Under the pieces are notes generated by a model. It searched no databases and was not told the DNA's origin. It was given only the letters and a program-made list of their open reading frames with translations. A DNA stretch of 64,000 bases from Carnegiea gigantea (Eukaryota > Streptophyta > Magnoliopsida > Caryophyllales > Cactaceae), in the NCBI GenBank assembly GCA_029747015.1, contig JAKOGI010000541.1, positions 167,177-231,176 on the forward strand, read 5' to 3'. Below are positions 13,166-59,997 of the stretch, piece by piece (position 1 is the first letter of the stretch; each line of letters opens with the position of its first letter). Made by a program: the position numbers and the translations under genes.

Positions 13166-13170
13166 CAGAC

Positions 13171-16317: not shown

Positions 16318-16808
16318 GATAGTATCAGAACAAGGTCCTGTGACTATGGGCAGCAACCTGAGCCCTATCTTTCATATAGTTGCCTAGGAACACTTTGTGA
16401 TAATGTGACATATGTCGTGCTCTGTGTGCAAATGTGCCTTATGGAATGGTTATTTGCGACTTTTGTGCGTAGCCGGAGTAGTTCGGTTAATTAAAAGGGG
16501 GTGAGTTATGCATCAGTATAAGAGCTAATTGGCTCCTTATGCCTTGAACTGGCATTGTGGATGCTCCATTGGTGCAATACGTACTAATTGACTTGACCGA
16601 TTAACAGTTATGTGATTTGGTTAAGCCATAGGATAAAATGTGAGCTGTGTGTTAGAATGTGAACCCAATTAACTTGTGCATTCTTGCGTGAACTAAGTGA
16701 TGGTTCGGATAGTAAATGTTTCATTAGTGCGCCCTGATAAAACAATCGAAAGTTAAAGTACATTGTTTTAAACTTAAACGATTGGAAATCTTTTTCCAAG
16801 CTCATTCT

Positions 16809-16870
16809 TTGCCCCTACATACAGATTGCTCCTTAAGCCCTACAAGAGAGAGGGCAGACATACTTAGAAG
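16809..16870 (+). other. LARD-B copy of conserved internal motif P (stem decayed)
   Basis: TTTGCCCC, ATTGCTCCT, a run of AGAG and GCAGACATACTT occur in the same order as the PBS-side stem-loop motif of LARD-A. The flanking arms (CATACAG/CATACTT) are not complementary here, so the motif survives as sequence but not as a hairpin. Confidence 0.5.
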
Positions 16871-19582
16871 TGGTAGAGAAGAGGCTAAAAATAGATAAGT
16901 TATTTTCCACCTTTGAAATTCAGGATTTTGAAATGTTAATGTCATTTTGGCTGTTGCGTTAAGTTTTACTTTACACTGAAGGAGTTGCCTTCCTTTAATA
17001 ATGATGAATGAGTTTAGGCTCATAAGCACATGTCTTCATATGCGTTGGGATGTTGCTTGTGAATGTGTACGTGCTACGATGTGTTCATCAATGGAATCAT
17101 TCATAATGGACTAAGAGAGAAATGACTAGAGATCAGTTGCTATGAGTGATAATCCTACTAAATGATACCTTCCTCTTTTGAATTTTGAATTGCTTGAGGA
17201 AACGAGGGGATGTTTTTGTATGCATGCTTAAAGGATTAAATGCTGGCAGTAGAATCTTGTTGAACATTGCGTAAGTGTACCTATCATTCCCCATCCTTGT
17301 CATTATTTCCTATACAGTGCATTACTTGCTTTCTATCATACAAACTATTATTCGTGATGTGGGGTGACAATGTTTTGGCTGGAATGAAGCCTCATACGCC
17401 TAGAAAGTGCGAAGGAGAGAGAACCTAGCAAACTTTAGAATTATATGTAGTAAACGACTCTTACTAAGATATGCAACCTACACGGTAAGGCTCCTATGAT
17501 TCCTTATAGGACAGATGTGTCTCATAAGACCTCGACACATACCTATAATACCCTTAACGTTGACCATACTCAAAATGGTTATAGCTTGTTGGTCGATAAT
17601 CTCTTTAAAATTTGGATGAGCTTTCGGCCATACCATTGACCACAGGTTGCATATTAGGATTACACGCGTGTATACACGTCTAAGTGTTTTCCCTATGTGA
17701 CAACCCTGCAAGTTTGAATGTCTTAAGGAATGATTATGGCATCATATGCTGCATGAAGCCATGGGAGTACCTATAGTTAGGATTGTTGTGAGTGGTCGTC
17801 CGTATGTTTGTGGTCGAATGCTAAGAGAATGAGTTTTTAGTGGTTGCTTGGCTTGAACTTGATTAAACATATGACTGTACTAGCCGAGCGATTTGATTTA
17901 TGTGGTTAGTTACACAACATGACTCTTAATCATCATTTACAGTCCATGAATTCTATTTTCGCATGTTATAGTTGGAGTAATTAAACATAATATATGTAAT
18001 GCGTGACTTGATGACAATAGAGTTGCATTTGCATGTGTTCACATCTATAGCTGGGTATACTTCATATATAAGAAAGGTAGCATGGTAGAGCATCTAAGGG
18101 CATGCTAGCATATATATAGATACTCACACATTCATTATGCACAATCATTGTTGCATTATAGGAGTTAGCTCACTTACTAGCTATGTGGGTGACCTATTAA
18201 GTACATGAGCTTCTTGGTGCTCGTTTTAAGCCTGTATAGGATGTAGTTGAGATCAATGCACAACCTAATATGTGTGGCCTATCACATGATAAGATCGTTA
18301 GAGTGTTACTTGCATTACATGACCCCTATTGCTTTATGTTATAGATTGAATGGCTGGATGCACATATATTTAATACACGACCTAGTGACTATCAAAATTT
18401 GCATTCACATGCGCTCTTATGTTTGGTAAGAATAACATACTAGTACCTCGTATTTTTTAGGCTAACCTCTATTTGGATACCCAAATGCCAACGTGCTTCA
18501 TATGACACGATGATGTGTAGGTGTACTTACGATCATATGCGAGCCTTTACTGTATCATCTGGTCCTTAATTTGTAGAACGTCGCAGTTAAAGTGTTTGAT
18601 TGAAGTGTTCTGATGCGATTTAACTATATATTGGTATATACTTGTGCTATCCCCATTGGGACATGGGTATGTCAATTTACCTGCCTAGCTTCATGACTTA
18701 GAGAGAAACTAATTCCACATGGAAACTTGAGGGTAGGGCTTTACATTACGTAAACCATTGTGATTAAACTAATGTAATTACCATGCCTTTTATTGCTCGT
18801 TTAGCTATACCTATCGATAGAATATCCTTGATTGGGATGATTGCATTCGTATGCATAATAGGGGGCATCAATTTGGAGCTCTGAATTACTACCTTGCTAA
18901 CTCTCATGCTGCTTTCCATACCACATTCCACTACCTATAAAAACTAGTGACCACTTCAGTGATGTTCCTACTGAAAAAGACTTCCTTGGGTGGCTGAATT
19001 ACCAATCACAGTGTAGGTGAATAATTGGGAGTAGTGACCTTACACCCCCCAACCTCATCACCCCCTTCAAATAATGTCTGCATAAGAAGTGCTGGAAACC
19101 TTCCTATCATTGACCTGTTATTGGACCATGTTCCCCAAGCTGTTCTAGGCTTAGTGATTGATGACCACATGCATTATCCCAGTAATATGCCCTATATATA
19201 TACTGAAACATAGATTAACTCTGGGGATTATGCTTGATTTCAAAATGCAATGTTGTTACAAACCTATATGTCATTCTTGTGTGTTGTCATTGTTCATGTA
19301 AAGCTATGTGATGCTATGTGATGCAATGCAATGCCCTTTCTATTCCACATGATATAGAATTCCTGGTCGACAGACTTAATCGTAAAATGATTTGATTCCT
19401 TCATGCATTAGGAAGGACTTGATATAGCCGCATACCCTTATTCAACCTTCATTAGTACCACTGGTTGTCATGTATAGAAAGGGTCCTCATGTGTCAACTT
19501 ATGTGCTCCTATGTAAAGTGGTTCTTGTTTAACCCTTGTTTTAACGTGATTTTAAAAAAGGTATCCATGCAAACTCAATTGC

Positions 19583-19640
19583 CCTCTTCGATGCGATTTG
19601 CTGTCAGCACCTCAATAGAGTGAGTAGACACTTGAAGATG
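19583..19640 (+). other. LARD-B copy of conserved internal motif Q (stem-loop)
   Basis: The arms CTCTTCGATGCG and CACTTGAAGATG can pair over TCTTCGA/TTGAAGA with one G-T wobble. They flank a loop starting ATTTGC and ending GAGTGAGTAGA, identical at both loop ends to motif Q of LARD-A. Confidence 0.6.
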
Positions 19641-19808
19641 ATTGGCAAAGAGGAGATTGGATACCATAAGCTCGTTTTTTATTTAAAAGATACAGTTGAT
19701 TCCAAAATGAAGTTTTTGGATCCTAATGCAAGTTGTGTAGATCATAGAACATGTGTACATCTTATGTTTGACTAAACTGTGAACTTTGGAATTTTGAGGA
19801 CAAAATTC

Positions 19809-19824
19809 TTTTAGGGGGAGAATG
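19809..19824 (+). other. LARD-B polypurine tract
   Basis: CTTTTAGGGGGAGAATG-type sequence directly precedes the 3' LTR, which begins TGATAGCAGGGG at 19825. It overlaps the pol C-terminal relic, as in Tekay/Del-type elements. Confidence 0.85.
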
Positions 19825-19854
19825 TGATAGCAGGGGTTCTTAATCTGGGGCTAA

Positions 19855-20089
19855 GGGCCTATTCTTTTCGTAGGTAAATCAGGGTAAGTAAACGGGTGAA
19901 GTAGGTTGAGGTAGGTTAAAGTAGGCTGAGATAGGTTGAAGTGGCTTGAAGTAGATTGAAGTAGGTCGAAGTGGGTTGAAGTAGGTTGAAATAGGTTGAA
20001 GTGGGTTGAAGTAGGTTAAAATAGGTTGAAGTGGGTTGAAGTGGGTTGAGATTGGTATTTTAAAATTGACTCACGAAAAGAACAGGGCC
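19855..20089. mobile_element. Tourist-like MITE with a 10-bp minisatellite core
   Basis: A 235-bp insertion is absent from the 5' LTR. The ends are inverted: GGGCCTATTCTTTTCGT on the left and, read inward, GGCCCTGTTCTTTTCGT on the right. Both sides carry the 3-bp duplication TAA (19852-19854 and 20090-20092), and the empty site GCTAACT is seen at about 8010. TAA target duplications with GGG/GCC ends point to PIF/Harbinger (Tourist) MITEs. Confidence 0.85.
19901..20050 (+). repeat. 10-bp minisatellite, 15 units
   Basis: The consensus GTAGGTTGAA repeats in perfect 10-bp register 15 times, with point variants such as GTGGGTTGAA and ATAGGTTGAA. It makes up most of the MITE interior. Confidence 0.92.
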
Positions 20090-20485
20090 TAACTCTCTAC
20101 ATTTATGTTTTCATCAACTGTGTTCTATTTAATTGGCCGTGTTATACTGATTGTATGCATACTAATTAGGTGTACTATTTATACGAAGTAATTTTATAAA
20201 TTTTCCTAATTAATTAATGGATTTCATGAAATTAGTGGGTTCGTTAAAAGCTAAGCCAAGGTGTACTTACGCAAAATTAGCAAACTGTGCAAAGGCATGT
20301 GGGGTCGAGATTAGCGGAATTAGATGATTTAGGACCGGATTCGGTTTGATAAGTGAGACTAAACAACATAAAAAAATTTAAAAAGGGGAAAAGGAACAAA
20401 AGAGGGGTCGAGACCACCTTTCTTCCTCGCAAGAATGGGAACCGAGGGCGTTCTCTACTATGTCAGCCCTGTGAACTACCAGAGA

Positions 20486-20523
20486 AGAGAGAGAGAGAGC
20501 GAGAGAGAGAGAGAGAGAGAGAG
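20486..20523 (+). repeat. GA microsatellite in LARD-B 3' LTR
   Basis: Nearly pure GA dinucleotide run with one GC interruption; the counterpart in the 5' LTR is at 13308-13334. Confidence 0.9.
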
Positions 20524-24291: not shown

Positions 24292-24911
24292 TTCACTGAG
24301 CATCTGGTAGCTATTCCCCTTATCTTTTTCCCTTTTCTCCAGGATTTGGTTGTGACAGCTAGAGTCTGGACTATGCAAGTTGAACTAGAGACTTCTTATG
24401 CTTCGGAAAGATGTGAAGGGCTTATGCAACGTAGATTTATGAGTTTATTGGCGTTGTGCAATGTATTCATAAGTATGCTAGCCTTGTAAGTTAATTATGT
24501 TGGTTCATATATAATATATTAAGTAATAGTTACTCTGAATGGCTGTGCGCGCCAACCATCTATGTGATCGGTCATTTGCTTAGCAGTTTTGCTTATTATG
24601 GGATGTAAACCCCAATGCTTCGGATGTGTGATCCATTAAGCTGTATCTTTATTTTTCTTCTATTTATTGAACTTTGTTCTTGGTATACTTTGGGTATGTG
24701 GCCCATAGAGTTGTGATATCCGGCATGTAACCGTTGAGTTTTGAATATGTGTTTATGCGTTTATCGAATGCAGGAACCTATTATAAGATTAGAAGCCTGG
24801 TCTTAGCCCATCTTTTAGGTGGAACTCTGTCCATTTCGCCCCAAAATTTAAGTATGATATAAAGCAATCGTTAACAGTACTAAACCTAGGGGTTATGGGT
24901 GTTACAGGTCC

Positions 24912-33665: not shown

Positions 33666-34274
33666 TGTTGGGTTTCGTGGCCCAAAATCCGAGTACCGGC
33701 ATGGTGGGACCGTGCTACACAGACACGGACGTGTCAAGACGAAGGACGCCAAGTCGAAGAGGGCAGAAAAACGGCACGGGTGTGCCGTGCCATGTGGCAC
33801 TGGGTGACCGTGCCACGTGGCACGGTCGTGCCCCGTGTCTTTTCGCCGCCTCTTTCGGTAGGCGGCTAGGGTTTCTGTCCGAGGGGGATTCCTCCTGACG
33901 GCTAGGGTTCTACTCTAAAGGGGAAAACCCTACTGTTTAGACCCTATATAAAGAGAATCAAGCCTAGGATCTAAATCACTCCAGTATTCATAAATACATT
34001 GAGAGGTAGAAGTACTTTGTGAGAGATTACAAGAGAGAGGTTGTAATTCTACTCTTAGATCAAATCACTGTGGTGATTGTGATCGTGTTGTATTCTTCCT
34101 ACTCATAGTGGATTGTTTTGGTGCTGTCGCCGTCCGTGGTTTTTCCCGCATTGGGTTTTCCACGTTAAATCTCTTGTCTTCTTATTTCAGTTTCTGTTAT
34201 TCTACTTGAATTTCTGAATCTCTAACTCATCCTATCGCTTCTGCTATTGTTGTTACTCTAATATTTACCTAACA
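33666..34274 (+). repeat. Copia 5' LTR
   Basis: 609 bp, TGTTGGG to CCTAACA. TATA box TATATAAAG is at 33945-33953. Upstream, 33774-33835 is dense with GTGCC/GGCAC inverted repeats including an 18-bp palindrome. U3, R and U5 cannot be delimited without transcript data, but the TATA places the start near 33980. Confidence 0.93.
33808..33825. promoter_or_regulatory. 18-bp palindrome with a G-box core in the copia promoter
   Basis: CCGTGCCACGTGGCACGG is a perfect palindrome centred on CACGTG, about 120 bp upstream of the TATA box. CACGTG is the core bound by plant bZIP and bHLH factors. In the 3' LTR the same site reads GTGCCATGCGGCAC and the core is lost. Confidence 0.6.
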
Positions 34275-34276
34275 AG

Positions 34277-34288
34277 TGGTATCAGAGA
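34277..34288 (+). other. Copia primer-binding site
   Basis: TGGTATCAGAGA, two bases after the 5' LTR; it matches the tRNA-iMet site at 11 of 12 bases. Confidence 0.88.
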
Positions 34289-34518
34289 CAGGTTGTGCGT
34301 TCGGTTAGGCGACGAGGGTGTGACATGGTGGACCCCATGGACGAGCTTGGTGAAGTGACATGCAAGTGTTGATCGAGCGGTAATACGTGTGCTGCAGCGT
34401 GGCTCGATGGTGTGGATAAGCTCTTGATGATGGCTTGACACCTTGGTAAAGGCTTCCGCTCAAGGGGGAGCTTGTGCATTGATGTGGTGTGGAAGAGACT
34501 CATGTGTGAGGGGGAGAT

Positions 34519-34806
34519 TGTTGGGAATATCACACTATGAGTAAAGAAGTCCCACATTAGGAGTTTGAGAAGAATGGTCATGGTATATAAGTCAAGTGGG
34601 CTACTCCTCCTATTGCCAATTGGTTTTAGGATGGAACCTCACTTGGGCTTGTTGCCATGGACCTTGGTTGAAGCGGGCTCCCTCCTTGGACCTTGGTTAA
34701 ATCTCTTGTCTTTTTATTTCTGTTTTCTGTTATTCACTTGAATTCTGAATCTCTAACTCATCCTATCGCTTCCGCTATTATTGTTGCTCTAATATTATTC
34801 CTAACA
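34519..34806 (+). repeat. Internal short LTR embedded in the copia element
   Basis: Its start TGTTGGGAATAT directly follows a polypurine run GAGGGGGAGAT (34508-34518), and it ends CCTAACA at 34806. The last 110 bp (from about 34690) match the U5 end of the outer LTRs, while the upstream 170 bp are different and include GTATATAAG (34582-34590), a TATA box. No 5-bp duplication flanks it. PBS, 244 bp and PPT followed by this LTR looks like the 3' half of a TRIM-like element fused to copia pol. Confidence 0.7.
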
Positions 34807-34851
34807 ACCGAAAGTGTGTATGCTATCAGCCCCTCATCATCGTTGTAACGG

Positions 34852-37240
34852 GCAGGTCTCCTGATCTCCCTTCGAGAAAGATTAAGAAACTTAGGACTGA
34901 CAATGGTCTTGAGTTCGTTGAGTCAGAGTTTGAAGAGTTCTGTACGAAAAACGGCATAGCTAGGCACAAGACATTGGTTGACAAACCACAACTAAATGGG
35001 GTTGCAGAACGAATCAACAGGACTCTATTAGAGAAAGCTAGATGTATGCTTTCACATGCCGAGCTATGGGATCGCAAGGCCTTTTGGGCAGAGGCTATTT
35101 CTACAGCCTGCTACCTGGTGAATCGTTCACCACACACCTCCATTGACTTCAAAATCCCAGAAGAAGTATGGTCAGGTAATCCTGCTGATTGTTCTAATTT
35201 AAGAATATTTGGATGTCCTGTGTTTGCCCATGTGAATAATGGGAAATTAGCCCCTAGGGCTGTCAAATGCATGTTCCTTGGATATGCATCTGAGTCTAAG
35301 GGATGTGGTGTCCTGAGTCTAAGAAAGTAATTCAGAGCAGGGATGTTACTTTCAATGAGAATGCTATGTTATTCTTTGGGAAGAATTCTATTGTTCCTTC
35401 TACCGATGCAGGTAATCAGGAAGATGCCAGTGTGAAGGTAGAAATGGAGACCGTTACAGCTCAAGGTGGAGCTGCTAATCATCCCAACAAGGAAGATCAG
35501 GTTACTGAACCTGGAACCATCAGTCCCAATCAACCTCAAGAGGAGGTTGCCCGTACTATAGCTTGTGATCGTCCTCAAAGGGAGATCAAAAGACCTGCCC
35601 ATTACAACGATGATGAGGGGCTGATAGCATACGCACTTTCGATTGCAGAGGAAGTGCCTGAAGGGGCTGAACCTTCAAATTATACTGAAGCAATCACTTG
35701 CCCAAGTTCACCTAGCTGGATCCTAGCTATGCAAGAAGAGATGGAGAGTCTGTAAAAGAACCGAACCTGGGAACTCTGTGAACTGCCTAAAGGCCGAAGA
35801 GCCTTAACTGCCAAGTGGATATACAAGAAGAAAGAAGGAATTCCTGGAGTTGAAGATGCAAGATGGAAGGCACGGTTGGTTGTTCGTGGTTGCAACCAAA
35901 GGGAAGGTATTGACTACAATGAGGTTTTCTCCCCTGTTGTTAGACATACCTCTATTCGAGTGCTTCTTGCATTTGTCATGTTGTTTGACTTGGAGTTGGA
36001 GCAGCTTGATGTGAAAACAGCATTCCTACATGGAGAGCTGGAAGAAGAAATTTACATGAGACAACCTGAAGGGTTTGCTATTCCTGGGAAGGAAGAATTG
36101 GTGTGTAAATTGCAAAAGTCCTTGTATGGACTCAAGCAAGCTCCAAGGCAGTGGTATAAACGTTTTGACATGTTTATGACCGATAAAGGGTATAAACGCA
36201 GTAGATATGACAATTGTGTGTACTTTAGACAGTATTATGATGGTACATTTATTTATCTACTGCTGTATGTCGATGATATGTTGATTGCTTCTAAGGACAA
36301 GACCTTAATTGGCATGTTGAAATCTTAACTCAGTAAGGAGTTTGAGATGAAAGACTTGGGTGCAGCAAAGAAAATACTGGGCATAGAGATCCACAGGGAT
36401 CGGAAAGCAGGTAAACTGTACTTGTCTCAAGAAAGGTACCTTGAGAAAGTACTAAGTAAATTCAACATGCACAACTGCAAGGCAGTTTCCAGTCCACTTG
36501 CTACACACTTCAGATTGTCTGCGGGATGCTGCCCGCAAATAGAGGAAGACATCAGAAGAATGTCCAATGTACCTTATTCTAGTGCTGCTGGTAGTTTAAT
36601 GTATGCTATGGTTTGCACTAGACCAGACTTATCACATGCTGTAAGTGTGGTAAGCAGATATATGCACAATCCTGGGAAGGATCACTGGGAAGCTGTGAAA
36701 TGGATCCTTCAATATGTGAAGGGTACTATAGGGAAGAGGTTGGTGTTTGATAAAAACAAAGCTGTTACATCCGATGTTGTAGGCTTTGTTGAAGCTGATT
36801 ATACTGGTGATTTGGATAGGAAGAGGTCCATATCTAGGTATATCTTCATCATATGTACAAGTGCTATCTCCTAGAAAGCATCATTGCAATCTATTACAGC
36901 CTTGTCTACTACAGAAGCTGAGTACATTGCTGCTACCGAAGGGGTGAAGGAAGCTACCTGGCTAAGGGGCCTTGTGATTGAGCTCGGAGTCCCACAAGCT
37001 CCGACTGTGGTGTTTTCTGATAGTCAGAGTGCCATCCACCTGACTAAGAACGATGCCTACCACCCGAAGACCAAGCATATTAGTGTCAAATACCACTACA
37101 TTAGAGACACAGTTGCTGCAGGTGAAGTAACAGTGAAGAAGGTTCACACGTCAGAAAATCCTGCAGACATGTTAACCAAGCCTCTGCCATTGGCTAAGTT
37201 CAAGCATTGCTTGGACTTAGTGGGCATTCACAGCCACTAA
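34852..37240 (+). pseudogene. Copia pol: integrase core, reverse transcriptase, RNase H
   Basis: Integrase begins in mid-domain with KLRTDNGLEF (about 34886-34915) and GVAERINRTL (about 35000-35027); the HHCC end and first catalytic Asp are gone. Near 35300 a small deletion shifts the frame (GYASESKG, then WCPESKK in the next frame). The rest follows one frame with stops at 35753-35755, 36326-36328 and 36872-36874. Reverse transcriptase has QLDVKTAFLHGEL (about 36002-36040), SLYGLKQAPRQW and the active-site YVDDM (36266-36280). RNase H has GFVEADYTGD (Glu where Asp is usual), [11 protein letters not shown] (from 36903), [10 protein letters not shown] and the closing [10 protein letters not shown], ending at TAA 37238-37240. 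Similar to Tnt1-94-type polyproteins. One frameshift and three stops rule out function. Confidence 0.93.
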
Positions 37241-37324
37241 GTGCCCATCGGGGCATTGCCCCTTAGGAGGGGCATCACCCTTCGGGGTGCAATGACGGAG
37301 TCAGTAGTGATTGGAGATTTTGGT

Positions 37325-37337
37325 CCAAGGTGGAGAT
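37325..37337 (+). other. Copia polypurine tract
   Basis: CCAAGGTGGAGAT lies immediately before the 3' LTR start TGTTGGG at 37338. Confidence 0.88.
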
Positions 37338-37949
37338 TGTTGGGTTTCATGGCCCAAAATCCGAGTACCGGCACGGTGGGACCGTGCTACACAGACACGG
37401 ACATGTCAAGACGAAGGACGCTAAGTCGAAGAGGGCAGAAAAACGGCACGGGTGTGCTGCCGTGCCATGTGGCACTGGGTGACTGTGCCATGCGGCACGG
37501 TCGTGCCCCGTGTCTTTTTGCCGCCTCTTTCGGTAGGCGGCTAGGGTTTCTGTCCGAGGGGGATTTCTCCTGGTGGCTAGGGTTCTACTCTAAAGGGGAA
37601 AACCCTACTGTTTAGACCCTATATAAAGAGGGTCAAGCCTAGGATCTAAATCACTCCAGTATTCATAAACACATTGAGAGGTAGAAGTACTTTGTGAGAG
37701 ATTACAAGAGAGAGGTTGTAATTCTGCTCTTAGATCAAATCACTGTGGTGATTGTGATCGTGTTGTATTCTTCCTGCTCATAGTGAATTGTTTTGGTGCT
37801 GTCGCCGTCCGTGGTTTTTCCCGCATTGGGTTTTCCACGTTAAATCTCTTGTCTTCTTATTTCAGTTTCTGTTATTCTACTTGAATTTCTGAATCTCTAA
37901 CTCATCCTATCGCTTCCGCTATTGTTGTTACTGTAATATTTACCTAACA
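37338..37949 (+). repeat. Copia 3' LTR
   Basis: 612 bp, nearly identical to the 5' LTR, with a 3-bp difference in length. TATATAAAG is at 37620-37628. The G-box palindrome of the 5' LTR is mutated here. Confidence 0.93.
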
Positions 37950-41700: not shown

Positions 41701-42803
41701 AAGCTAAACGCACATAATTCGCATTAATTTACAATCTTAAGCATCTACTAACTACACGCATTCGAATTAATGCTAAACGCATATAATTCACTTCGAATTA
41801 CAATCTCAGGCATCAATCAACCAAATGAATCGAACCTAAACATGAATAGCTAATTTCTTGACATTTCTAACAAATTTAACAAACCCTAGCTTGATATGCA
41901 ACATCAATCTGCTGAAAATCAATTTCGAAAAGAATAATAACTTAGGAGGCGAGAACACCCACCTCGATTTCACGCTAGATACACGCAATTTAGCTTGAAT
42001 TGAGGCCAAAAATCGAACACCAACAGCCTGCCCTTCCCGCGTGACTCGGCTAGCCCGAGCCCCAAAACCCTAACTTGCGTTATGGTCGCGGTTGGGGTTG
42101 TCTGGGGTCGAATTCGACCCCCAGATTTAGAGGGGAGGCCGAATCCGGTGTGGGTGACCAGATTCCGGCACGTGGTGGCGGAATTGGGCGTGGCTGATGC
42201 GTGGTTTTCAAGTTGGCTCGATTGTGTGACGTGGGGAAGGAGGATTGGAGGTGTTCTGGTGGTTGGCGACGCAGGGATGAGGGGACCAGGCGGTTCCTCC
42301 TCTCGCCGGCGACACGTGAAGGCCGGTGGTGTCACCAGGCGGCGACCGGTGACCGGAGAGAGCGAGGGAGAGAGAGAGCGTGGCAGAGAGAGAGAGCGAG
42401 AGCGTGCAGGGGGGGCGGGTTCTGCCCGACTTCGGTTCCCCCTTCCCCCTTTTCAATTTCCTTTTTTTTTTTTTGGGGTGACTCAATAACATCATTCAAC
42501 TGAATCCCGATCCCGTACCTGCTAAAGACTAGGCTAAACCCGAACTAAAACGACCTACAATCAACATTTCAGTTTAAACTTTGGGATTCAACCAAGTAAA
42601 ACGAAAAACGATTTTAAAAACTCGGTTTAGCGTTGATTCAAATATTTTATAAATAAGTAGCGTCAATAATAACGTTAATCAAATAATCGTTCTTTTTAAT
42701 GAATTTAATCGTTAAAAACTCACACAGTTACTAAAAATACGATTTCATAACGTAAAAGCAAGACAGACAACTTAACGTAAAAATAATGAAGGTGGGTCTT
42801 ACA
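38709..42803 (-). repeat. LARD-A LTR 1
   Basis: 4095 bp, TGTAACACCC at the left and GGTGGGTCTTACA at the right in plus view. It contains a 68-bp repeat array (41076-41870) and a GC-rich island (42077-42475) with a GA/CT microsatellite (42354-42405) and A/T tract. In the island, its left half is like LTRs 3 and 4 and its right half like LTR 2. The left edge borders unassigned DNA; the partner TSD is outside the window. Confidence 0.9.
41076..41870 (-). repeat. Degenerate 68-bp tandem repeats in LTR 1
   Basis: About 11-12 units of 66-71 bp. Each starts like ACTCGAATTGAAGCTAAAC, followed by a TTCGA-type block and AATTCCTTTT-CA near the end. Units differ from each other considerably, so the array is old. 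Confidence 0.88.
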
Positions 42804-42805
42804 TT

Positions 42806-42820
42806 CTTCCCCCCTTAAAA
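42806..42820 (-). other. LARD-A polypurine tract, unit 1
   Basis: The minus strand reads TTTTAAGGGGGGAAG, two bases before the LTR start. Confidence 0.88.
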
Positions 42821-42984
42821 GAATTTCGTCCTCGAAATTCCAAATCTAAGTTCGGTCTTTCTTAAAATGCATGCACATAACTAGGATCTACACGGTAGGT
42901 TTCCAGAAGGTTCCATTTTGCAATCACTACTTCTTTCTAAATCAAAAGAAAATATCTTATGGTATCCAGTCTCCTCTTCGCCAA

Positions 42985-43042
42985 CCTCTTCAAGCGTCTA
43001 CTCACTCTATTTAGGCGCCGAGGGCAAATCGCATTGAAGAGG
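42985..43042 (-). other. Stem-loop motif Q, unit 1
   Basis: Sense arms CCTCTTCAATGCG and CGCTTGAAGAGG pair over 12 positions with one bulged T. They enclose a 33-nt loop starting ATTTGC, with TCGG inside, and ending GAGTGAGTAGA. It lies 180 bp from the PPT-side LTR. Confidence 0.78.
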
Positions 43043-45443
43043 GGCAAATGAGTTGGCGTGGAAAACCATATCGAGTTTGTTTTGAAAAAGAAACATAGAT
43101 TTTCAATGATCTAGACTCAGTTCGCATGGTAAGCAATAATTCTATGCATATGCATCTATAAGTGGGCATCTAAAGGCACGACAATTGAGACAATGACATC
43201 TTCAGGTCATACACTAGTGGTCTCATTCTAAAACATGAATTCAAGTTACTATTGGGATCACAATGATTAACATGGAGACTACTATAACACATTTAGAGTA
43301 ATAGAAATGTCACATAGCACCACATAGTACCATTTAAGCACAATGGAACTGCATGGTATTAGCAATCCAATATTCTTAAGCTTAGGAGTCTCGGGGAGCA
43401 TGAACGCGTCTAAAACATACATGGCAAGCAATTTACAAAAGGAAAACATATACACCAACATTCCGATGTCTGTACATCAATCCCAGCTAACTTTTAGGCC
43501 CTTTCATTCATGACAACTTATTCAAGACATGTCAGGTTCGCATGAAGGCAATTAACTTAGTCAGGTCCATTCAAAGGCATCAAGATATTGGGTCACTCTG
43601 AAGTCAAATCAATTGGTCAAGAAGCTATCACGTCACACCTAAGCAGTAAAAACATTATATTACATCACATTGACAATGAAGGGACTTGGAGTAACACTCG
43701 AATTCACATTGGCATCACATAGAGTCTACAATAGAGTACTATGGATGAAGAATCATAAATGGCATGAACTAGCATGGCATGTCGATAAAAACAACTGAGA
43801 AGATAATGCTACAGCAAGAATACGTGCATGCAAGCAATGAGTCAAAGGTCATGTTATGCCGTGTATTATGAAATTTCATTCGTCTGGATAATCAAGTCAC
43901 CTACCAAACCAAACGCAAGTCAAGCATGGATTGCACATAGGCAAGCAAAGGTGAAGATGGACACCTAAGGTCACCACATCATGCATTAAGTGCGTATGTG
44001 TATAGTTGTTCAAACCATATCATGGGATAATAGAACTTGGGGAGTACAAGTAATGACTCAGAGATCGTACAAGCAATGGTTCGCATAGGTTGAACCACTT
44101 AATCAATCCAGCCACTACGCAACTAAAGTTCATGATAAGCAACTCCAATGACATGTATTTACTATACCATTCACTCATAAAACATACGGCTGATCATCAA
44201 TCAACTAGCATTGGTAAGAACTACGGTGCTAATGGTCTTATAGGTATGTGTTGAGGGTCTACAAGGTACATCTATCCCATAGGTGATCATATGGGTCTCA
44301 CTGTAGTTCGCTTACCTTAGTGGAGATCATTACTATGTACAATTCCAAAGTCTGCTAGGTTCTTCCTCTCTTTCACTTTCTTGGTGTATTAGGGTTCGTC
44401 CAAGCCAAAACATCGTCTCTCCAATCAAACATAAGAGGCATAAACCTTAGTTCGAATAGAACATGAGTAACTCCCTTACAATCATGATTATTCTAGCATA
44501 CCATTCAATGATGCATTCGGAGATAAACATTTCAAAGCAAAGGTTACAATCACGCAATCACACCATGGTATATGTGCGCAATTAGCAATTTAACCACAAC
44601 ATAAGGACTATACGCTATGCAGTGATTAGCTAACTATGACTACACGAAGCAACAACTCATGTAGGTTGAATTCTTTGGCCAATTAAGTGACATACCCCAT
44701 AAGAATCAAGTTGAAGAAGCACCACATAGCTTACTTACTTTACCGTTAGTTAATAAACATAAAGTTGGCCCTGCATATCATTCTAAGTGACTATATAAGC
44801 TTTCAAGGTCCATGGTTTCAAGTTCACAACTAATATCACGTAAGGGGTCATTTAGAACGGCATACAGGATTGCATTTCTCATTTGCAAACTAAGGTCAAG
44901 GTATGTCTTGAAACTTGTCAAAATCATTAAAAATTAGCCATCAACCGACTAACAGGCGTAAGAACGAATCTAAGTGTTAATAACACATATGGGATAACAC
45001 TTAGGTCACAATCAACAGGACTCTGCCACAATCACTCATATTGGCATGTGCACACACGAAGCTATCACCCAGCCTTCTTAACAATAAACATTCACGTAAA
45101 AAGGTTTATTGTCAAAAAGAAGCTTTTAGTCAAGAGGAGCAATTCTTAGTCGCTTATAACTTGTCATTTACACATCAAGCAACATATGCATCTTGGCAGA
45201 CAGGCATTCAAAACGTTTAGTTGCGCATAGAAACTTACGACAGTAGCAGGGACTCGAGTGTGATTATAAAGCAAATGCAAGCTTTCAAATGCGGTATTAA
45301 AACCTATCCACATAATTAGAAGGGTCTTTCAATGCGAAGCAAACATCTTAATTCACTATTTAGAAAAGTCTTAACTTTCAAAATCTCTAGCTTTTCAAAC
45401 GAGAAATAGTCCATCTGCCTCTAGCCTATCCCTACCAACCATT

Positions 45444-45492
45444 AAGTACGTCTACTCACTCCATTACGGGGTCCGAGGAGCAAATCGTACTT
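45444..45492 (-). other. Stem-loop motif P, unit 1
   Basis: Sense arms AAGTACG and CGTACTT pair perfectly. They enclose a 35-nt loop starting ATTTGC, with TCGG inside, and ending GAGTGAGTAGA, closely matching the loop of motif Q. It lies 350 bp from the PBS-side LTR. Confidence 0.78.
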
Positions 45493-45825
45493 CGGGGGCA
45501 AAGATGGGCTTAGAGTTAAGACTTTTCAATCATTCAATTTCAAACCGTCAAGGCGTATAAGCAAATAAACAAACATCCTTCGATTGGACTAATACTTAAC
45601 TCATTCATGAGAAAACAAGTTACTCGACTAACACCCTTAACAATTCGTTCGTTCACTCGATTAGTGAGCTCACTCGAGCAGTACCTAGCTAGCTGAATAC
45701 ACCAAGATTCTCATTAAACGCACAATTATAGACCTAGTAAGCATATATCACATCGTTATGAACGCGTTCCTATTGGACTATATGAATGCAAGACTCAGGT
45801 CGCGGCCTATGGTCGCAGGACCTTT

Positions 45826-45837
45826 GCTCTGATCCCA
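45826..45837 (-). other. LARD-A primer-binding site, unit 1 (mutated)
   Basis: TGGGATCAGAGC in sense; one change from the TGGTATCAGAGC seen in units 2 and 3. Confidence 0.85.
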
Positions 45838-45841
45838 TCAA

Positions 45842-48800
45842 TGTAACACCCCCAGCCCCTAGGCCAGAAGCGTTACGCTTTCCTAACTTCTTACTTAAAT
45901 CCTGGGATGAAGTGGGCAGAGTTCCCCCTAAAAACTGACCATTTCCAGGCTAAAAGCCTTACAATAAGTCCGTGTAAATCAACGGAAGCGCAAACATTTG
46001 AAACATAGCTCAACGGCCACACGCCGGAGTTCATAACTCAACGAGCCACTCGCTCGGAGTACACCAACCAGATTGATTCATGAATAAAGAAGAAATGGAA
46101 GATACAACTCAATGGTTAACAAAACCGGAGTATTAAGATTTACATCCCAAAACATCACTAAATTAAACCAAGAAGACATCTAACTAACTTGATGGTTGGC
46201 TTAGGCGGCCATACAGAGCGACCTTTATACCAAATGCATTACATGAGCTAGAATAATCATTTACAGACCTTTATTAACTAAGAGTACATTACATGACTTC
46301 ATTAAACACGTAAGATCCCTTCAAATGAGCACATACGACGCCTAGTAAGCAACAATAGGTTCTTTCTGGACTTATGTGACTCAACTTCTTCCTGTCAGAA
46401 AGAAAACTTGGGGAAAAGGGAAAAGAGTAATGGGATGAGCAACCACACGCTCCGTGAGTGTCCCCCAACCCCCTTAAAACCAAAAACGTTGCAGGCAATA
46501 CTATCTTTACTAGTCACATATCACGTTTCCATACTCTACTATCATAATAGATATTCATAGAACCTTTATGGGTGGATCACTAAACATAAACTTCACTTCA
46601 ACGACTCAATCATTTTTCTAGGTTCCTCAACGACGGAGTTCTTTACTAGCAAGCAGTTAGGCACGTAAGTAAGTTTCAAAGGCTAAGTATAAGGATCTTT
46701 TCTTTTCATAACATAACTTCCTAATACTCCATTTGAACTACACATGAACCCTCAATCATATGATATGTATATAAGGTTATCCCTTTTCATAAATACACTT
46801 TTCTTGGCATTTCATTCATATGATATACATATCACACACATAAACACATATCAACGTTCATTCTTTTAGGAAGAGACGCCTTCATTCATAGAATTTTCAC
46901 GTGCTATAACTTTCTTTCTCATCTCGTACACTTTAAATCAGACAGATTTGCTATGGATAAGAATGATGCCACATAAGATTGGAATCCACGTTCAACCATA
47001 CTTAAGAATCATTCATAATGCATCCATTGAAAGCTTTCCTTTAATACACAGGCTAAGAATCCACATTCATCATATTTAAGAACATTTCTTTAAATCGGCA
47101 ATGAAACTTTCTTTGCACATTGAAAGCATTTCATAACCTTGAGGTTCTCAATCTTTTGAAAGAGTTTACATTTCGCATTCGTCGTAAAACGACCCTTGTA
47201 TGCATTTCTTATCCATTCCATGCGGCCTCTTTGGGCCCATAAAACATTCTTTTTCTTTAAAACATATAAAATGGCAAAGGCCAATTGCTTTTCTTAACTT
47301 AGTACGAAAGTACTTCTGGCATAAGATCATTACAGGGTGCTGATTGGGTGAGAACTATTCTCGACCCCATAGTGAGACCTATCGCTCACGCTTAAGCTCT
47401 TACTCCCGGGATGGCTACATATAACATATCGGACCATTACATTAGCCCTCGTCAGGGCCTCTAGGGTTTATCCGGACTTATCCCTAGGTTAACATTACAT
47501 CATATCATATTGTCCGCAGCACATTATCTTAGCCACTTAAAGCGTATCGGCCATAACGGCTATTAATTTTCCGTTTCAAACAATAAAATCATTCAACGTA
47601 TAATTCCCATCTCCCTTTCGTTAAAAACGTTTTAGGGATTCCTCCCAAACACTATTTGGATAGCTAAAATAGGCCATAGCTCGTTACTAGACATGGCTAT
47701 TATTCATTTAAAACACATGAAGAGTCATTTGCTAAAACATCACCCTTCCACACATATGTTACATTTTAAACATATAAGGAAAAGGGTATACACATATCAC
47801 ATTTAAACACTTCGTAATCATTTCAACACAATAAGCCACACATGGCCTCGCAATCCACACGATTGCGGTCAATTCACAACCCGAACTCCCTCCTCACAAG
47901 CACCGTACCACAGGGCCTCGAACGCTTATGATTCTTTCCTCAAACCATCCAACTACCAACTTGGTTCATCGATTCATTAATCACAACATATTATCGTATT
48001 AGCTTATAAAAATAAAGAGTGAAGTTTAGGTTCTTATCTAAGCATCCAGCACCATTCAGCGGTCCGCTACAACAAGCGTTCATATGGCCACATTTATTCA
48101 TGAATCGACAATACTTTATTCAATAAATCAAACATAATTTGATTCTAAACATAACCGATACATTTCGAGTAACTTTCCTTAGCATGAATGTGCTAAAAAA
48201 AAAAAAGGGTTCGTATTAAAGCTAAACATATTTTAATAGCTTCAAATTTAATTCGTTTACATGCATTAGCTAGGTTAACTCGAATTGAAGCTAAACATGT
48301 TTATATAACTTCGAGATTAATTCCTTTAACATGCAATAACTAATCCACTTGATTCGAAACTAAACACATTGCATTAACCTTGAAATTAGCTCATTTCACG
48401 CATTGGTTAATTAATTCGAAGGGAAGCTAAGGATGTTAACGCACCTTCGATTTTAATTCTTTTTCATACATTAACTCACTAACTTGAATCGATACTGAAC
48501 ACGTTAAACTAACTTCATTTGTAATCCTTTTTTCATGCAGCAACTAATTAACTTGAATCGATGCTAAACATATCAAACAAACTTCGTTTCTAATTCCTTT
48601 TCAAACAATAACTCATTAACTCGAATTGAAACTAAATATGCTAAATTCATTTCGATTTTAATTCCGTTTTTAAACAATAATTCTTTAACTCGAATCGAAG
48701 CTAAATATGTTAAAATTAACTTCGATTTTGATATCTCAAGCACGATTTACATTCATGGACTCGAATTGATGCTAAACACATTTAATTTACTTCGAATTAA

Positions 48801-49943: not shown

Positions 49944-50107
49944 GAATTTCGTCCTCGAAATTCCAAATCTAAGTTCGGTCTTTCTTAAAATGCATGCACA
50001 CAACTAGGATCTACACGGTAGGTTTCCAGAAGGTTCCATTTTGCAATCACTACTTCTTTCTAAATCAAAAGAAAATATCTTATGGTATCCAGTCTCCTCC
50101 TCGCCAA

Positions 50108-50165
50108 CCTCTTCAAGCGTCTACTCACTCTATTTAGGCGCCGAGGGCAAATCGCATTGAAGAGG
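50108..50165 (-). other. Stem-loop motif Q, unit 2
   Basis: Identical to motif Q of unit 1 in both arms and loop. Confidence 0.78.
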
Positions 50166-52514
50166 GGCAAATGAGTTGGCATGGACAACCATATTGAGTT
50201 TGCTTTGAAAATGAAACATAGATTTCCAATGGTCTAGACTCAGTTCGCATGGCAAGCAATAATTCTATGCATATGCATCTATAAGTGGGCATCTAAAGGC
50301 ACGACAATTGAGACAATGACATCTTCAGGTCATACACTAGCGGTCTCATTCTAAAACATGAATTCAAGTTACTATTGGGATCACAATGATTAACATGGAG
50401 ACTACTATAACACATTTAGAGTAATAGAAATGTCACATAGCACCACATAGTACCATTTAAGCACAATGGAATTGCATGGTATTAGCAATCCAATATTCTT
50501 AAGCTTAGGAGTCTCGGGGAGCATGAACGCGTCTAAAACATACATGGCAAGCAATTTACAAAAGGAAAACATATGCACCAACATTCCGATGTCTGTACAT
50601 CAATCCCAGCTAACTTTTAGGCCCTTTCATTCATGACAACTTATTCAGGACATGTCAGGTTCGCATGAAGGCAATTAACTTAGTCAGGTCCATTCAAAGG
50701 CATCAAGATATTGGGTCACCCTGAAGTCAAATCAATTGGTCAGGAAGCTATCACATCACACCTAAGCAGTAAAAACATTGGCATCACGTAGGGTCTACAA
50801 CAGAGCACTTAAGGATGAAGAATCATAAATGGCATGAACTAGCATGGCATGTCGATAGAAACAACTGAGAAGATAATGCTACGGCAAGAATACGTGCATG
50901 CAAACAACGAGTCAAGGGTCATGTCAGGCCGTGTACTATGAAACTTCATTCGTTTGGATAATCAAGTCACCTACCAAACCAAACGCAAGTCAAGCATGGA
51001 TTGCACATAGGCAAGCAAAGGTGAAGATAGACACCTAAGGTCACCACATCATGCATTAAGTGCGTATGTGTATAGTTGTTCAAACCATATCATGGGATAA
51101 TAGAACTTGGGGAGTACAAGTAATGACTCAGAGATCGTACAAGCAATGGTTCGCATAGGTTAAACCACTTAATCAATCCAGCCACTACGCAACTAAAGTT
51201 CATGATAAGCAACTCCAATGACATGTATTTACTATACCATTCACTCATAAAACATACGGCTGATCATCAATCAACTAGCATTGGTAAGAACTACGGTGCT
51301 AATGGTCTTATAGGTATGTGTTGAGGGTCTACAAGGTACACCTATCCCATAGGTGATCATATGGGTCTCACTGTAGTTCGCTTACCTTAGTGGAGATCAT
51401 TACTATGTACAATTCCAAAGTCTGCTAGGTTCTTCCTCCCTTTCGCTTTCTTGGTGTATTAGGGTTCGTCCAAGCCAAAACATCGTCTCTCCAATCAAAC
51501 ATAAGAGGCATAAACCTTAGTTCGAATAGAAGATGAGTAACTCCCCTACAATCATGATTATTCTAGCATACCATTCAATGATGCATTCGGAGATAAACAT
51601 TTCAAAGCAAAGGTTACAATCACACAATCACAGCATGGTATATGTGCGCAATTAGCAATTTAACCACAACATAAGGACTATACGCTATGCAGTGATTAGC
51701 TAACTATGACTACACGAAGCAACAACTCATGTAGGTTGAATTCTTTGGCCAATTAAGTGACATACCCCATAAGAATCAAGTTGAAGAAGCACCACATAGC
51801 TTACTTACTTTACCGTTAGTTAATAAACATAAAGTTGGCCCTGCATATCATTCTAAGTGACTATATAAGCTTTCAAGGTCCATGGTTTCAAGTTCACAAC
51901 TAATATCACGTAAGGGGTCATTTAGAACGGCATACAGGATTGCATTTCTCATTTGCAAACTAAGGTCAAGGTATGTCTTGAAACTTGTCAAAATCATTAA
52001 AAATTAGCCATCAGCCGACTAACAGGCGTAAAAACGAATCTAAGTGTCAATAACACGTATGGGATATCACTTAGGTCACAATCAACAGAACTCTGCCACA
52101 ATTACTCATATTGGCATGCACACACACGAAGCTATCACTCAGCCTTCTTAACAATCAAACATTCACGTTAAAAGGTTTATTGTCAAAAAGAAGCTTTTAG
52201 TCAAGAGGGGTAATTCTTAGTCGCTTATAACTTGTCATTTACACATCAAGCAACATATGCATCTTGGCAGACAGGCATCCAATACGTTTAGTTGCGCATA
52301 GAAACTTACAACAGTAGCAGAGACTCAAGTGTGATGATAAAGCAAATGCAAGCCTTCAAATGCGGCATTAAAACCTAACCACATAATTAGAAGGGTCTTT
52401 CAATGCGAAGCAAACATCTTAATTCACTATTTAGAAAAGTCTCAACTTTCAAAATCTCTAGGTTTTCAAACGAGAAATAGTCCATCTGCCTCTAGCCTAT
52501 CCCTACCAACCATT

Positions 52515-52563
52515 AAGTACGTCTACTCACTCCATTACGGGGCCCGAGGAGCAAATCGTACTT
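52515..52563 (-). other. Stem-loop motif P, unit 2
   Basis: Arms AAGTACG/CGTACTT unchanged; the loop differs from unit 1 by one base (GGGCCC for GGACCC in sense). Confidence 0.78.
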
Positions 52564-52894
52564 CGGGCAAAGATGGGCTTAGCTTTAAGACTTTCCAATC
52601 ATGCAATTCCAAACCGTCAAGGCGTATAAGCAAATAAACAAACAACCTTCGATTGGACTAATACTTAACTCATTCATGAGAAAACAAGTTACTCGACTAA
52701 CACCCTTAACAATTCGTTCGTTCACTCGATTAGTGAGCTCACTCGAGCAGTACCTAGCTAGCTGAATACACCAAGATTCACATTAAACGCACAATTATAG
52801 ACCTAGTAAGCATATATCACATCATTATGAACGCGTTCCTATTGGACTATATGAATGCAAGACTCAGGTCGCGGCCTATGGTCGCAGGACCTTT

Positions 52895-57044: not shown

Positions 57045-57208
57045 GAATTTCGTCCTCGAAATTCCAAATCTAAGTTCGGTCTTTCTTAAAATGCATGCAC
57101 ACAACTAGGATCTACACGGTAGGTTTCCAGAAGGTTCCATTTTGCAATCACTACTTCTTTCTAAATCAAAAGAAAATATCTTATGGTATCCAGTCTCCTC
57201 CTCGCCAA

Positions 57209-57266
57209 CCTCTTCAAGCGTCTACTCACTCTATTTAGGCGCCGAGGGCAAATCGCATTGAAGAGG
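57209..57266 (-). other. Stem-loop motif Q, unit 3
   Basis: Arms and loop identical to units 1 and 2. Confidence 0.78.
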
Positions 57267-59615
57267 GGCAAATGAGTTGGCATGGACAACCATATTGAGT
57301 TTGCTTTGAAAATGAAACATAGATTTCCAATGGTCTAGACTCAGTTCGCATGGCAAGCAATAATTCTATGCATATGCATCTATAAGTGGGCATCTAAAGG
57401 CACGACAATTGAGACAATGACATCTTCAGGTCATACACTAGCGGTCTCATTCTAAAACATGAATTCAAGTTACTATTGGGATCACAATGATTAACATGGA
57501 GACTACTATAACACATTTAGAGTAATAGAAATGTCACATAGCACCACATAGTACCATTTAAGCACAATGGAATTGCATGGTATTAGCAATCCAATATTCT
57601 TAAGCTTAGGAGTCTCGGGGAGCATGAACGCGTCTAAAACATACATGGCAAGCAATTTACAAAAGGAAAACATATGCACCAACATTCCGATGTCTGTACA
57701 TCAATCCCAGCTAACTTTTAGGCCCTTTCATTCATGACAACTTATTCAGGACATGTCAGGTTCGCATGAAGGCAATTAACTTAGTCAGGTCCATTCAAAG
57801 GCATCAAGATATTGGGTCACCTTGAAGTCAAATCAATTGGTCAGGAAGCTATCACATCACACCTAAGCAGTAAAAACATTGGCATCACGTAGGGTCTACA
57901 ACAGAGCACTTAAGGATGAAGAATCATAAATGGCATGAACTAGCATGGCATGTCGATAGAAACAACTGAGAAGATAATGCTACGGCAAGAATACGTGCAT
58001 GCAAACAACGAGTCAAGGGTCATGTCAGGCCGTGTACTATGAAACTTCATTCGTTTGGATAATCAAGTCACCTACCAAACCAAACGCAAGTCAAGCATGG
58101 ATTGCACATAGGCAAGCAAAGGTGAAGATAGACACCTAAGGTCACCACATCATGCATTAAGTGCATATGTGTATAGTTGTTCAAACCATATCATGGGATA
58201 ATAGAACTTATGGAGTACAAGTAATGACTCAGAGATCGTACAAGCAATGGTTCGCATAGGTTAAACCACTTAATCAATCCAGCCACTACGCAACTAAAGT
58301 TCATGATAAGCAACTCCAATGACATGTATTTACTATACCATTCACTCATAAAACATACGGCTGATCATCAATCAACTAGCATTGGTAAGAACTACGGTGC
58401 TAATGGTCTTATAGGTATGTGTTGAGGGTCTACAAGGTACACCTATCCCATAGGTGATCATATGGGTCTCACTGTAGTTCGCTTACCTTAGTGGAGATCA
58501 TTACTATGTACAATTCCAAAGTCTGCTAGGTTCTTCCTCCCTTTCGCTTTCTTGGTGTATTAGGGTTCGTCCAAGCCAAAACATCGTCTCTCCAATCAAA
58601 CATAAGAGGCATAAACCTTAGTTCGAATAGAAGATGAGTAACTCCCTTACAATCATGATTATTCTAGCATACCCTTCAATGATGCATTCGGAGATAAACA
58701 TTTCAAAGCAAAGGTTACAATCACGCAATCACACCATGGTATATGTGCGCAATTAGCAATTTGACCACAACATAAGGACTATACGCTATGCAGTGATTAG
58801 CTAACTATGACTACACGAAGCAACAACTCATGTAGGTTGAATTCTTTGGCCAATTAAGTGACATACCCCATAAGAATCAAGTTGAAGAAGCACCACATAG
58901 CTTACTTACTTTACCGTTAGTTAATAAACATAAAGTTGGCCCTGCATATCATTCTAAGTGACTATATAAGCTTTCAAGGTCCATGGTTTCAAGTTCACAA
59001 CTAATATCACGTAAGGGGTCATTTAGAACGGCATACAGGATTGCATTTCTCATTTGCAAACTAAGGTCAAGGTATGTCTTGAAACTTGTCAAAATCATTA
59101 AAAATTAGCCATCAGCCGACTAACAGGCGTAAAAACGAATCTAAGTGTCAATAACACGTATGGGATATCACTTAGGTCACAATCAACAGAACTCTGCCAC
59201 AATTACTCATATTGGCATGCACACACACGAAGCTATCACTCAGCCTTCTTAACAATCAAACATTCACGTTAAAAGGTTTATTGTCAAAAAGAAGCTTTTA
59301 GTCAAGAGGGGTAATTCTTAGTCGCTTATAACTTGTCATTTACACATCAAGCAACATATGCATCTTGGCAGACAGGCATCCAATACATTTAGTTGCGCAT
59401 AGAAACTTACAACAGTAGCAGAGACTCAAGTGTGGTGATAAAGCAAATGCAAGCCTTCAAATGCGGCATTAAAACCTAACCACATAATTAGAAGGGTCTT
59501 TCAATGCGAAGCAAACATCTTAATTCACTATTTAGAAAAGTCTCAACTTTCAAAATCTCTAGGTTTTCAAACGAGAAATAGTCCATCTGCCTCTAGCCTA
59601 TCCCTACCAACCATT

Positions 59616-59664
59616 AAGTACGTCTACTCACTCCATTACGGGGCCCGAGGAGCAAATCGTACTT
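59616..59664 (-). other. Stem-loop motif P, unit 3
   Basis: Same arms and loop as unit 2. Confidence 0.78.
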
Positions 59665-59997
59665 CGGGGGCAAAGATGGGCTTAGCTTTAAGACTTTCCA
59701 ATCATGCAATTCCAAACCGTCAAGGCGTATAAGCAAATAAACAAACAACCTTCGATTGGACTAATACTTAACTCATTCATGAGAAAACAAGTTACTCGAC
59801 TAACACCCTTAACAATTCGTTCGTTCACTCGATTAGTGAGCTCACTCGAGCAGTACCTAGCTAGCTGAATACACCAAGATTCACATTAAACGCACAATTA
59901 TAGACCTAGTAAGCATATATCACATCATTATGAACGCGTTCCTATTGGACTATATGAATGCAAGACTCAGGTCGCGGCCTATGGTCGCAGGACCTTT

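Follow-up and report, generated by a model that had tools for sequence, protein, structure and literature searches.

Two homologous RNA rods near the ends of noncoding LARD cores in Carnegiea gigantea: candidate cis-acting signals

The window studied here, a stretch of 64,000 nucleotides from the cactus Carnegiea gigantea (contig JAKOGI010000541.1), contains retrotransposons of the LARD type (large retrotransposon derivatives), whose noncoding cores carry the two RNA motifs, P and Q, that are the subject of this analysis. LARDs, like Sukkula and its relatives in the Triticeae, are characterized by long terminal repeats (LTRs) and a noncoding core with a primer binding site (PBS) and a polypurine tract (PPT). 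A tandem array of three elements, termed LARD-A, takes up the region of ~38.7-64 kb (38709-64000) on the minus strand, with three cores of ~3 kb and shared LTRs of ~4.1 kb in between, and the plus strand carries an older relative, LARD-B, whose core spans ~16318-19822. The LTRs have the length of several kb that is typical of LARDs (~4.1 kb in LARD-A and ~3.4 kb in LARD-B, where the LTR was aligned in pieces), and the noncoding core of ~3 kb comes with both a PBS-like sequence, TGGTATCAGAGC, and a PPT. None of the 13 stop-to-stop open reading frames (ORFs) of at least 150 amino acids in the window falls inside the four cores. In each of the three LARD-A cores Q lies close to the PPT and P close to the PBS, where the original prediction had put them. 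The sequence GAGTGAGTAGA occurs seven times in the window, on the minus strand in the three Q and three P motifs of LARD-A and on the plus strand in the Q of LARD-B. All six predicted copies in the array indeed have the motifs, although they amount to only three near-identical elements (97-99.6% identity to each other) with two motifs each.

When folded, P and Q become rods built of three helices in a stack, with a length of 72 nt that further helices can extend to ~120 nt (Table 1). The innermost helix III of P consists of UUUGCUC with GAGUAGA (7 pairs, including two G-U) plus CUC with GAG, and the same pairing is found in Q with two bulges. The segments that had been described as a shared loop do have the lengths given (33 nt in Q and 35 nt in P), with stems that are flush and close on CG at corresponding edges, but most of their nucleotides pair (UUUGCYC to GAGUAGA and CUC to GAG), so that they do not form a loop. 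The stem of that description is helix II, which sits between helix III and the outer helix I (UUUGCC/GGYRRR); the latter encloses the stems in LARD-A copies 1 and 3 and in Q. In the P of LARD-A copy 2, in which 2 nt are missing, the bare 70-nt motif folds mostly without helix I, which forms when the flanks are added. The P of LARD-B has lost helix II and its bare 71-nt motif gives no rod fold; the outer helix UUCUUUGCC/GGUAGAGAA still pairs once the flanks are included, so that this P is more than the surviving sequence that had been claimed, while the Q rod of LARD-B was rightly described as retained, with mismatches. Because folding puts the common sequence in paired arms, it is both sides of helices I and III that P and Q have in common, and the helix II arms that differ (at most 5 ungapped identities). 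The apical loops are 12-13 nt long; that of Q begins with GGCGCC and that of P has GGGCCC near its start (GGACCC in LARD-A copy 1). Since the sequence of helices I and III is common to both motifs, cross-pairing is possible there, and one could imagine that P and Q exchange arms (UUUGCYC with GAGUAGA) to hold the 5' and 3' ends together, to aid strand transfer or otherwise to control reverse transcription. The location of the rods near the PBS and PPT would suit such a role, yet helix II favours local folding, and we consider the proposal quite unlikely.

Table 1. P and Q motifs and associated features in the window (R1 and R2, covariance models trained on Q and P, respectively; MFE, minimum free energy; z, z-score)
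Feature	Position	Strand	Remarks
Q motif, LARD-A copy 1	42977..43048	-	helices I, II and III, apical loop with GGCGCC; MFE -30.3 kcal/mol; in R1 training set
Extended Q rod, LARD-A copy 1	42953..43073	-	extra outer pairs UAUGGU .. ACCAUA; z -5.47, 0/1000 shuffles
P motif, LARD-A copy 1	45431..45502	-	apical hexamer GGACCC; MFE -25.5; in R2 training set
Extended P rod, LARD-A copy 1	45398..45525	-	MFE -48.8
Q motif, LARD-A copy 2	50100..50171	-	in R1 training set
P motif, LARD-A copy 2	52502..52571	-	2 nt shorter beside helix I; in R2 training set
Q motif, LARD-A copy 3	57201..57272	-	R1 match and fold
P motif, LARD-A copy 3	59603..59674	-	apical GGGCCC; in R2 training set
Q motif, LARD-B	19578..19649	+	rod with mismatches; 72 bits, in R1 training set; z -3.2, 5/1000
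P motif, LARD-B	16807..16877	+	helix II lost, outer helix with flanks; 56 bits, in R2 training set; no match by Q-trained R1
Noncoding internal domain, LARD-A copy 1	42804..45841	-	high end is PBS-like site, low end is PPT
Noncoding internal domain, LARD-B	16318..19822	+	bounds taken from sequence
PPT block GGAATTTCGAGGACGAAATTCTTTTAAGGGGGG	42809..42841	-	GAGGACG starts 143 nt downstream of Q

P and Q are homologous. The covariance model trained on Q (R1) matched the three LARD-A copies of P in the window with 28-29 bits (E 4e-6 to 7e-6) and gave no match to the P of LARD-B, and the model trained on P (R2) matched all four Q copies with 21-36 bits; neither had any other match in the window at E<=1. 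BLAST joined P with Q in LARD-A copy 1 (E 7e-5) and left P and Q of LARD-B unjoined. On reading, five adjacent helix II pairs appeared to have different bases in P and Q at both positions without losing the pairing, with a bulged U of Q gapped. In a combined alignment of P and Q (A9; 83 matches at E<=0.5, 76 distinct rows, from 57 loci) 91.6% of the cells were paired versus 83.5% in shuffles, and 134 cells were changed on both sides versus 40, both values being equalled by 0 of 500 shuffles. The covariation score exceeded that of every one of the 500 shuffles, the remaining two measures were reached by 2 and 18 of them, and the counts lay far above those of slid controls. The alignment was fitted to the structure and is biased towards it, and the worst P copies are missing, as the P of LARD-B, the P of L160, L176 and L186 gave no match and L161 was not included. 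When the same substitutions were placed randomly in P-to-Q comparisons (A8), more pairs proved to be kept than expected (p 0.0002-0.0014). The P-Q covariation concerns two groups and equals roughly one deep comparison.

The pairing of helix II, which is more than chance in LARD-A copy 1, was also set against that of shuffled arms. As good pairing was obtained in 0 of 5000 shuffles for the Q and 16 for the P of LARD-A copy 1, and in 419 and 2617 for the Q and P of LARD-B; further values were 44 (L122 P), 122 (L144 P), 271 (L169 Q), 664 (L185 P) and 820 (L174 Q). A scan of the cores for z-scores in windows of 110 nt ranked P and Q first and second of 147 windows in LARD-A copy 1, sixth and first of 144 in copy 2, second and first of 144 in copy 3, and eighth and fourth of 170 in LARD-B. 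Because windows of an LTR control (101 in all) also reached a z of -3.8, z alone is a poor proof of structure. The extended Q rods were matched by none of 1000 dinucleotide shuffles for every LARD-A copy and by 5 for LARD-B; the P rods, cut to 90-92 nt, were weaker (15, 107 and 23 of 1000 in LARD-A and 87 in LARD-B). RNAalifold, applied to LARD-A copies 1 and 3 and LARD-B with 200 column shuffles, yielded, for the best window per island, a z of -5.8 for P and -3.9 for Q, neither equalled by any of the 200 shuffles, and weaker values for the antisense (-2.4 and -2.0). Conserved RNA structure, another characteristic of LARD cores, is thus seen for P and Q, and not within single families. By RNAalifold, neither the PBS island nor the C island showed conserved structure. 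LARD-A and LARD-B have in common a third conserved island, mid-core (44230-44427 and 17355-17556, ~74% identity). The mid-core window 44214-44323 and its equivalents, which had a low single-sequence z, were rejected as structure, as the lowest sense z of the C island was -0.06 (antisense -1.27) in the RNAalifold run; the C2 alignment in that run consisted mostly of gaps and says little.

The motifs persist beyond the window, with hundreds of copies in the genome. The 1.135-Gb assembly contains 1,285 exact copies (625+660) of the 13-mer GAGTGAGTAGACG versus 17 (8+9) of the reversed pattern, the PPT pattern 634+688 times versus 0 for the control, and the exact linked Q-PPT pattern 464 times (219+245) versus 0. 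Among the first 100 listed sites of each, 20 PPT sites were preceded on the same strand, at 165-193 nt, by a 13-mer; opposite-strand pairs within 4 kb were absent. The first 30 of the 1,285 places (L113-L142) included one, L119, that is not a clear family member: its 13-mer (L119:1482-1566) stands outside a clear P or Q context, has by eye a helix III-like partner (TTTGCTCCTTCC ... GGAGTGAGTAGA), was matched by neither R1 nor R2, and represents either chance or another family. Relatives in viral contigs (5 and 0 stretches) and in prokaryote genomes (107 stretches, the 80 listed having microbial titles) were taken for chance, without a control.

Twenty regions of 8.3-10 kb were compared, six of which (L143-L148) had been picked for two listed 13-mers 2.3-2.8 kb apart and 14 otherwise, one of these, L161, lying at the 13-mer of a P and the remaining 13 at that of a Q; later P copies were located by R2, a model that scores structure. 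In 19 of the 20 regions P and Q had a common orientation and P was the upstream one, and 13 of the 14 regions not picked for the pair hold both, every Q-chosen one having a P. The distance from Q to the PPT block was 130-151 nt in all 24 elements. A PBS was recognised for 14 of the 36 P copies examined and for none of the other 22; in 12 of the 14, P started 335-361 nt after it (486 and 497 nt in the other two). Both motifs thereby lie within the terminal few hundred nucleotides outside the LTRs, where packaging signals are expected. The spacing between P and Q ranged from 1507 to 2808 nt in 24 elements, and the middle could be aligned to that of LARD-A copy 3 for 15-70% in 19 of 22 other elements and fully in three. 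The blocks at the P end and the Q end aligned in 22 of 22, a similarity that is partly built in since the segments were cut at the P and Q matches. Local alignment of LARD-A with LARD-B, which replaced a global whole-core alignment with loose gaps that had given a spurious 76% identity, left islands at the PBS end, at P, in two middle blocks and from Q to the PPT, plus weak short matches. Judged from these alignments, the subfamilies are mosaics with common ends.

The reading that we tentatively favour for these co-occurring and fixedly placed homologous rods is that P and Q are paralogous, paired cis-acting RNA signals, for packaging or dimerisation, that serve the trans-mobilisation of LARD RNA. 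One RNA module, duplicated, would stand at the 5' end (P) and the 3' end (Q) of the LARD genomic RNA. The rods would be recognised by the Gag or nucleocapsid protein of an autonomous chromovirus, and this recognition would single out the noncoding RNA to be dimerised and packaged and lead to reverse transcription in trans. The apical palindromes GGGCCC (P) and GGCGCC (Q) would permit kissing-loop dimers, and the repetition of the module near the 3' end would give full-length RNA an advantage or supply more sites for Gag to bind. According to the available passages of PMC4974528, a minimal Ty1 with proteins supplied in trans needs 380 nt of its 5' end and 357 nt of its 3' end, and nt 429-4979 of Ty3 are dispensable in a similar assay; those of PMC11381356 have Ty3 RNA dimerise via an apical palindrome of 6 nt. 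In these assays Ty1 and Ty3 can do with a few hundred nucleotides per end for trans-mobilisation, as LARD would, and Ty3 has a 5' hairpin with an apical palindrome; unlike LARD, they are not described in these passages as having a homologous hairpin pair at the two ends. BARE2, a non-autonomous element, still has the signals for dimerisation and packaging, and its relative BARE1 packages it (available part of PMC3735527). It differs from LARD-A in belonging to the Copia superfamily, in lacking Gag only and in having a known helper, that of LARD-A being putative. By description, P and Q also resemble two retroviral elements, the constitutive transport element (CTE), a rod with repeated protein-binding features, and the dimerisation initiation site of HIV, with its GC palindrome in an apical loop. 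No family of Rfam 15 was matched at gathering over the 64 kb, nor at E<=1 over 42800-45860.

Several observations weigh against the packaging or dimerisation reading. A perfect apical palindrome, GGGCCC, is present in no more than 18 of the 29 distinct P rows, and the apical hexamer of Q is a perfect palindrome in 19 of 43 rows (GGCGCC in 17) and self-complementary in 29 if G-U is counted; by our own reckoning a 6-nt palindrome would occur in a 12-nt loop by chance in ~1 of 9 cases, and is hence not rare. Localisation and packaging of Ty3 are said to need POL and both untranslated regions (available part of PMC11381356), the need for POL setting Ty3 apart from LARD. L161, the sole region chosen at a P 13-mer, has no Q, and of the 17 P copies that lack the exact 13-mer, 11 outfold 95% of mononucleotide shuffles and 6 do not. 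Of 22 further P copies, 19 have a lower raw folding energy in the sense strand, a count of little weight because 39 of 53 control windows of LARD-A copy 3 and 38 of 62 of LARD-B show the same. With this strand argument gone it becomes somewhat likelier, though in our view still very unlikely, that the rods are a source of small RNAs via Dicer-like cutting or a binding site at the DNA level. The sequence is repeated, and the rods, ~120 nt long and with few bulges, look like precursors of small RNAs, but the lack of an Rfam match argues otherwise, and the sense z lies below the antisense z (dinucleotide shuffles) in 8 of 8 P and Q rods, which stand for about four independent sequences and speak mildly against a DNA role. 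The sense z was also the lower one in five core windows picked for a low sense z. Among background windows the same held for 28 of 53 in LARD-A copy 3 and 27 of 62 in LARD-B, and a general bias of z is thus absent; windows with z <= -2 numbered 4 in sense and 0 in antisense in the former core and 6 and 1 in the latter. This excess of well-folding sense windows and the sense preference of the eight rods count in favour of packaging or dimerisation.

Against the packaging or dimerisation reading also stands the weak covariation within the motifs, as 45 to 114 of 500 shuffles scored as high over five measures for P only (34 matches at E<=1e-10, 29 distinct rows) and 14 to 62 for Q only (45 matches at E<=1e-9, 43 distinct rows). 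Within P or within Q, pairs are kept at about the rate expected from random placement of substitutions relative to a reference copy, with no P copy at p<0.09 and no full Q copy below 0.17 (0.076 for the reduced Q of L164). One-sided substitutions gave an overall mixed picture: C-G pairs were kept 24 times and lost 15 times in P (p 0.2) and 37 and 21 times in Q (p 0.048), and A-U pairs 21 and 29 times in P and 13 and 4 times in Q. Decay of CpG on both sides can moreover imitate a change from C-G to U-A. Because pairs are kept only at the rate of random placement, most differences among copies are probably due to decay after insertion, and LARD-B has decay of its own, since its LTR pieces are 81-85% identical. 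As far as alignments can tell, covariation is demonstrated at the level of the paralogues, P versus Q, and not within either. The original claim of selected structure accordingly stands where it rests on position and on the comparison of P with Q, and not by covariation within either motif. The survival of pairs at the neutral rate would suit an old duplicated fold-back, functionless now and kept because the LARD lineages still active are of recent age compared with their mosaic middles, and so would the P of LARD-B without helix II and the families without part of Q. Such a relic we hold to be somewhat unlikely, as P and Q lie in conserved islands and the Q-PPT distance is fixed while much of the middle turned over, and as the five adjacent pairs that differ on both sides still pair with the bulged U of Q gapped.

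Also to be weighed against the packaging or dimerisation reading is the distribution among other families, as judged from 20 PPT sites at which the exact 13-mer is lacking. Eight were matched by R1 as Q-like, five strongly (L175, L181, L177, L169 and L172) and three weakly (L164, L174 and L176, with E 3.5e-6, 1e-4 and 0.03). The three weak ones lack, by eye, the 3' arm of helix III, and no rod fold was obtained for the Q of L164, L169 and L174, so that Q is degraded in more distant families. P was found in L185 and L186, two elements of the reduced-Q family, and was not located at the guessed positions in L183 and L184. Q was absent from L171, L173 and L178 and from a noncoding family with the same PPT block (L163, L165, L168 and L179); upstream of its PPT the latter shows another possible hairpin, GTGCGTTGGG.../...CCCAACATGCAC (by eye), and windows of low z. 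None of five coding chromovirus-like 3' ends contained Q; in four of these (L166, L167, L180 and L182) the ORFs measure 244-247 amino acids, and in L170 the ORF is broken. The ORF of the one coding end tested, L166, matched SH3_Tf2-1, with a PBS followed by a gag ORF (Retrotrans_gag) upstream, and the leader of this element had no P (0 of 1), as R2 gave no match at E<=10 and GAGTGAGTAGA was not found within 2 changes. The idea that coding partners carry the same pair was thus not confirmed among the few sampled, and because these lack the motifs, a signal simply common with the helper is disfavoured, unless the true helper falls outside the sample.

That the sampled coding relatives manage without P and Q also tells against a role as a nuclear export or RNA stability element resembling the CTE of simple retroviruses, by which unspliced noncoding RNA would leave the nucleus via two protein-binding rods. 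An imperfect rod with internal loops that is present twice would be in keeping with it, and Q sits just before the 3' LTR, as retroviral export elements often do; P, however, lies near the 5' end, a position less usual for such elements, and we regard export as unlikely. Within the packaging or dimerisation reading, it might be that P and Q form a private bipartite LARD tag that is needed at both ends, such that a helper without the tag dimerises and packages only full-length parasite RNA, a version to which we likewise give a small chance.

Some further features concern the elements themselves and their surroundings. Among 100 listed sites, same-strand motif pairs are often 6.4-7.3 kb apart, about one element length, which fits LTR-sharing LARD-A arrays. 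The places concerned are the window (38709-64000) and, in G000, C69, C95, C53, C65, C74, C85, C96, C114, C135 and C146. Parallels are the LTR-sharing tandem arrays of Cassandra, a terminal-repeat retrotransposon in miniature (PMC7215508), and Triticeae elements with a common LTR (PMC1950507), both from the parts of these papers available. The LTRs of LARD-B (8014-16317 and 19823-24907) can be aligned in pieces only (81-85%); the left one includes a repeat pair (8264-9426 and 11962-13163, 83%) that is probably a nested element, and in its region an ORF of 304 amino acids (9932-10846) for which no Pfam family was matched. At 33666-37949 lies a Copia-type element with LTRs that are 96% identical and a pol split into several ORFs (RVT_2).

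That LARDs specify conserved RNA structures is already known (available part of PMC7215508). The likeness of the present elements to Sukkula-type LARDs, in their long LTRs, noncoding core and RNA structure, is one by description. The twin end module is apparently new, as none was seen in the results of our literature searches, the coverage of which left out most subscription journals. Coding-free retrotransposons are abundant in large plant genomes, and to our knowledge it is an open question how they are recognised by the proteins of other elements. Homologous rods that are placed at the ends and outlast the swapping of much of the core are tangible candidates for what is recognised, and their small size suits them to tests in vitro and to deletion in a reporter. 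If the private tag were true, it would amount to a packaging code specific to the parasite and not to a signal retained from the helper.

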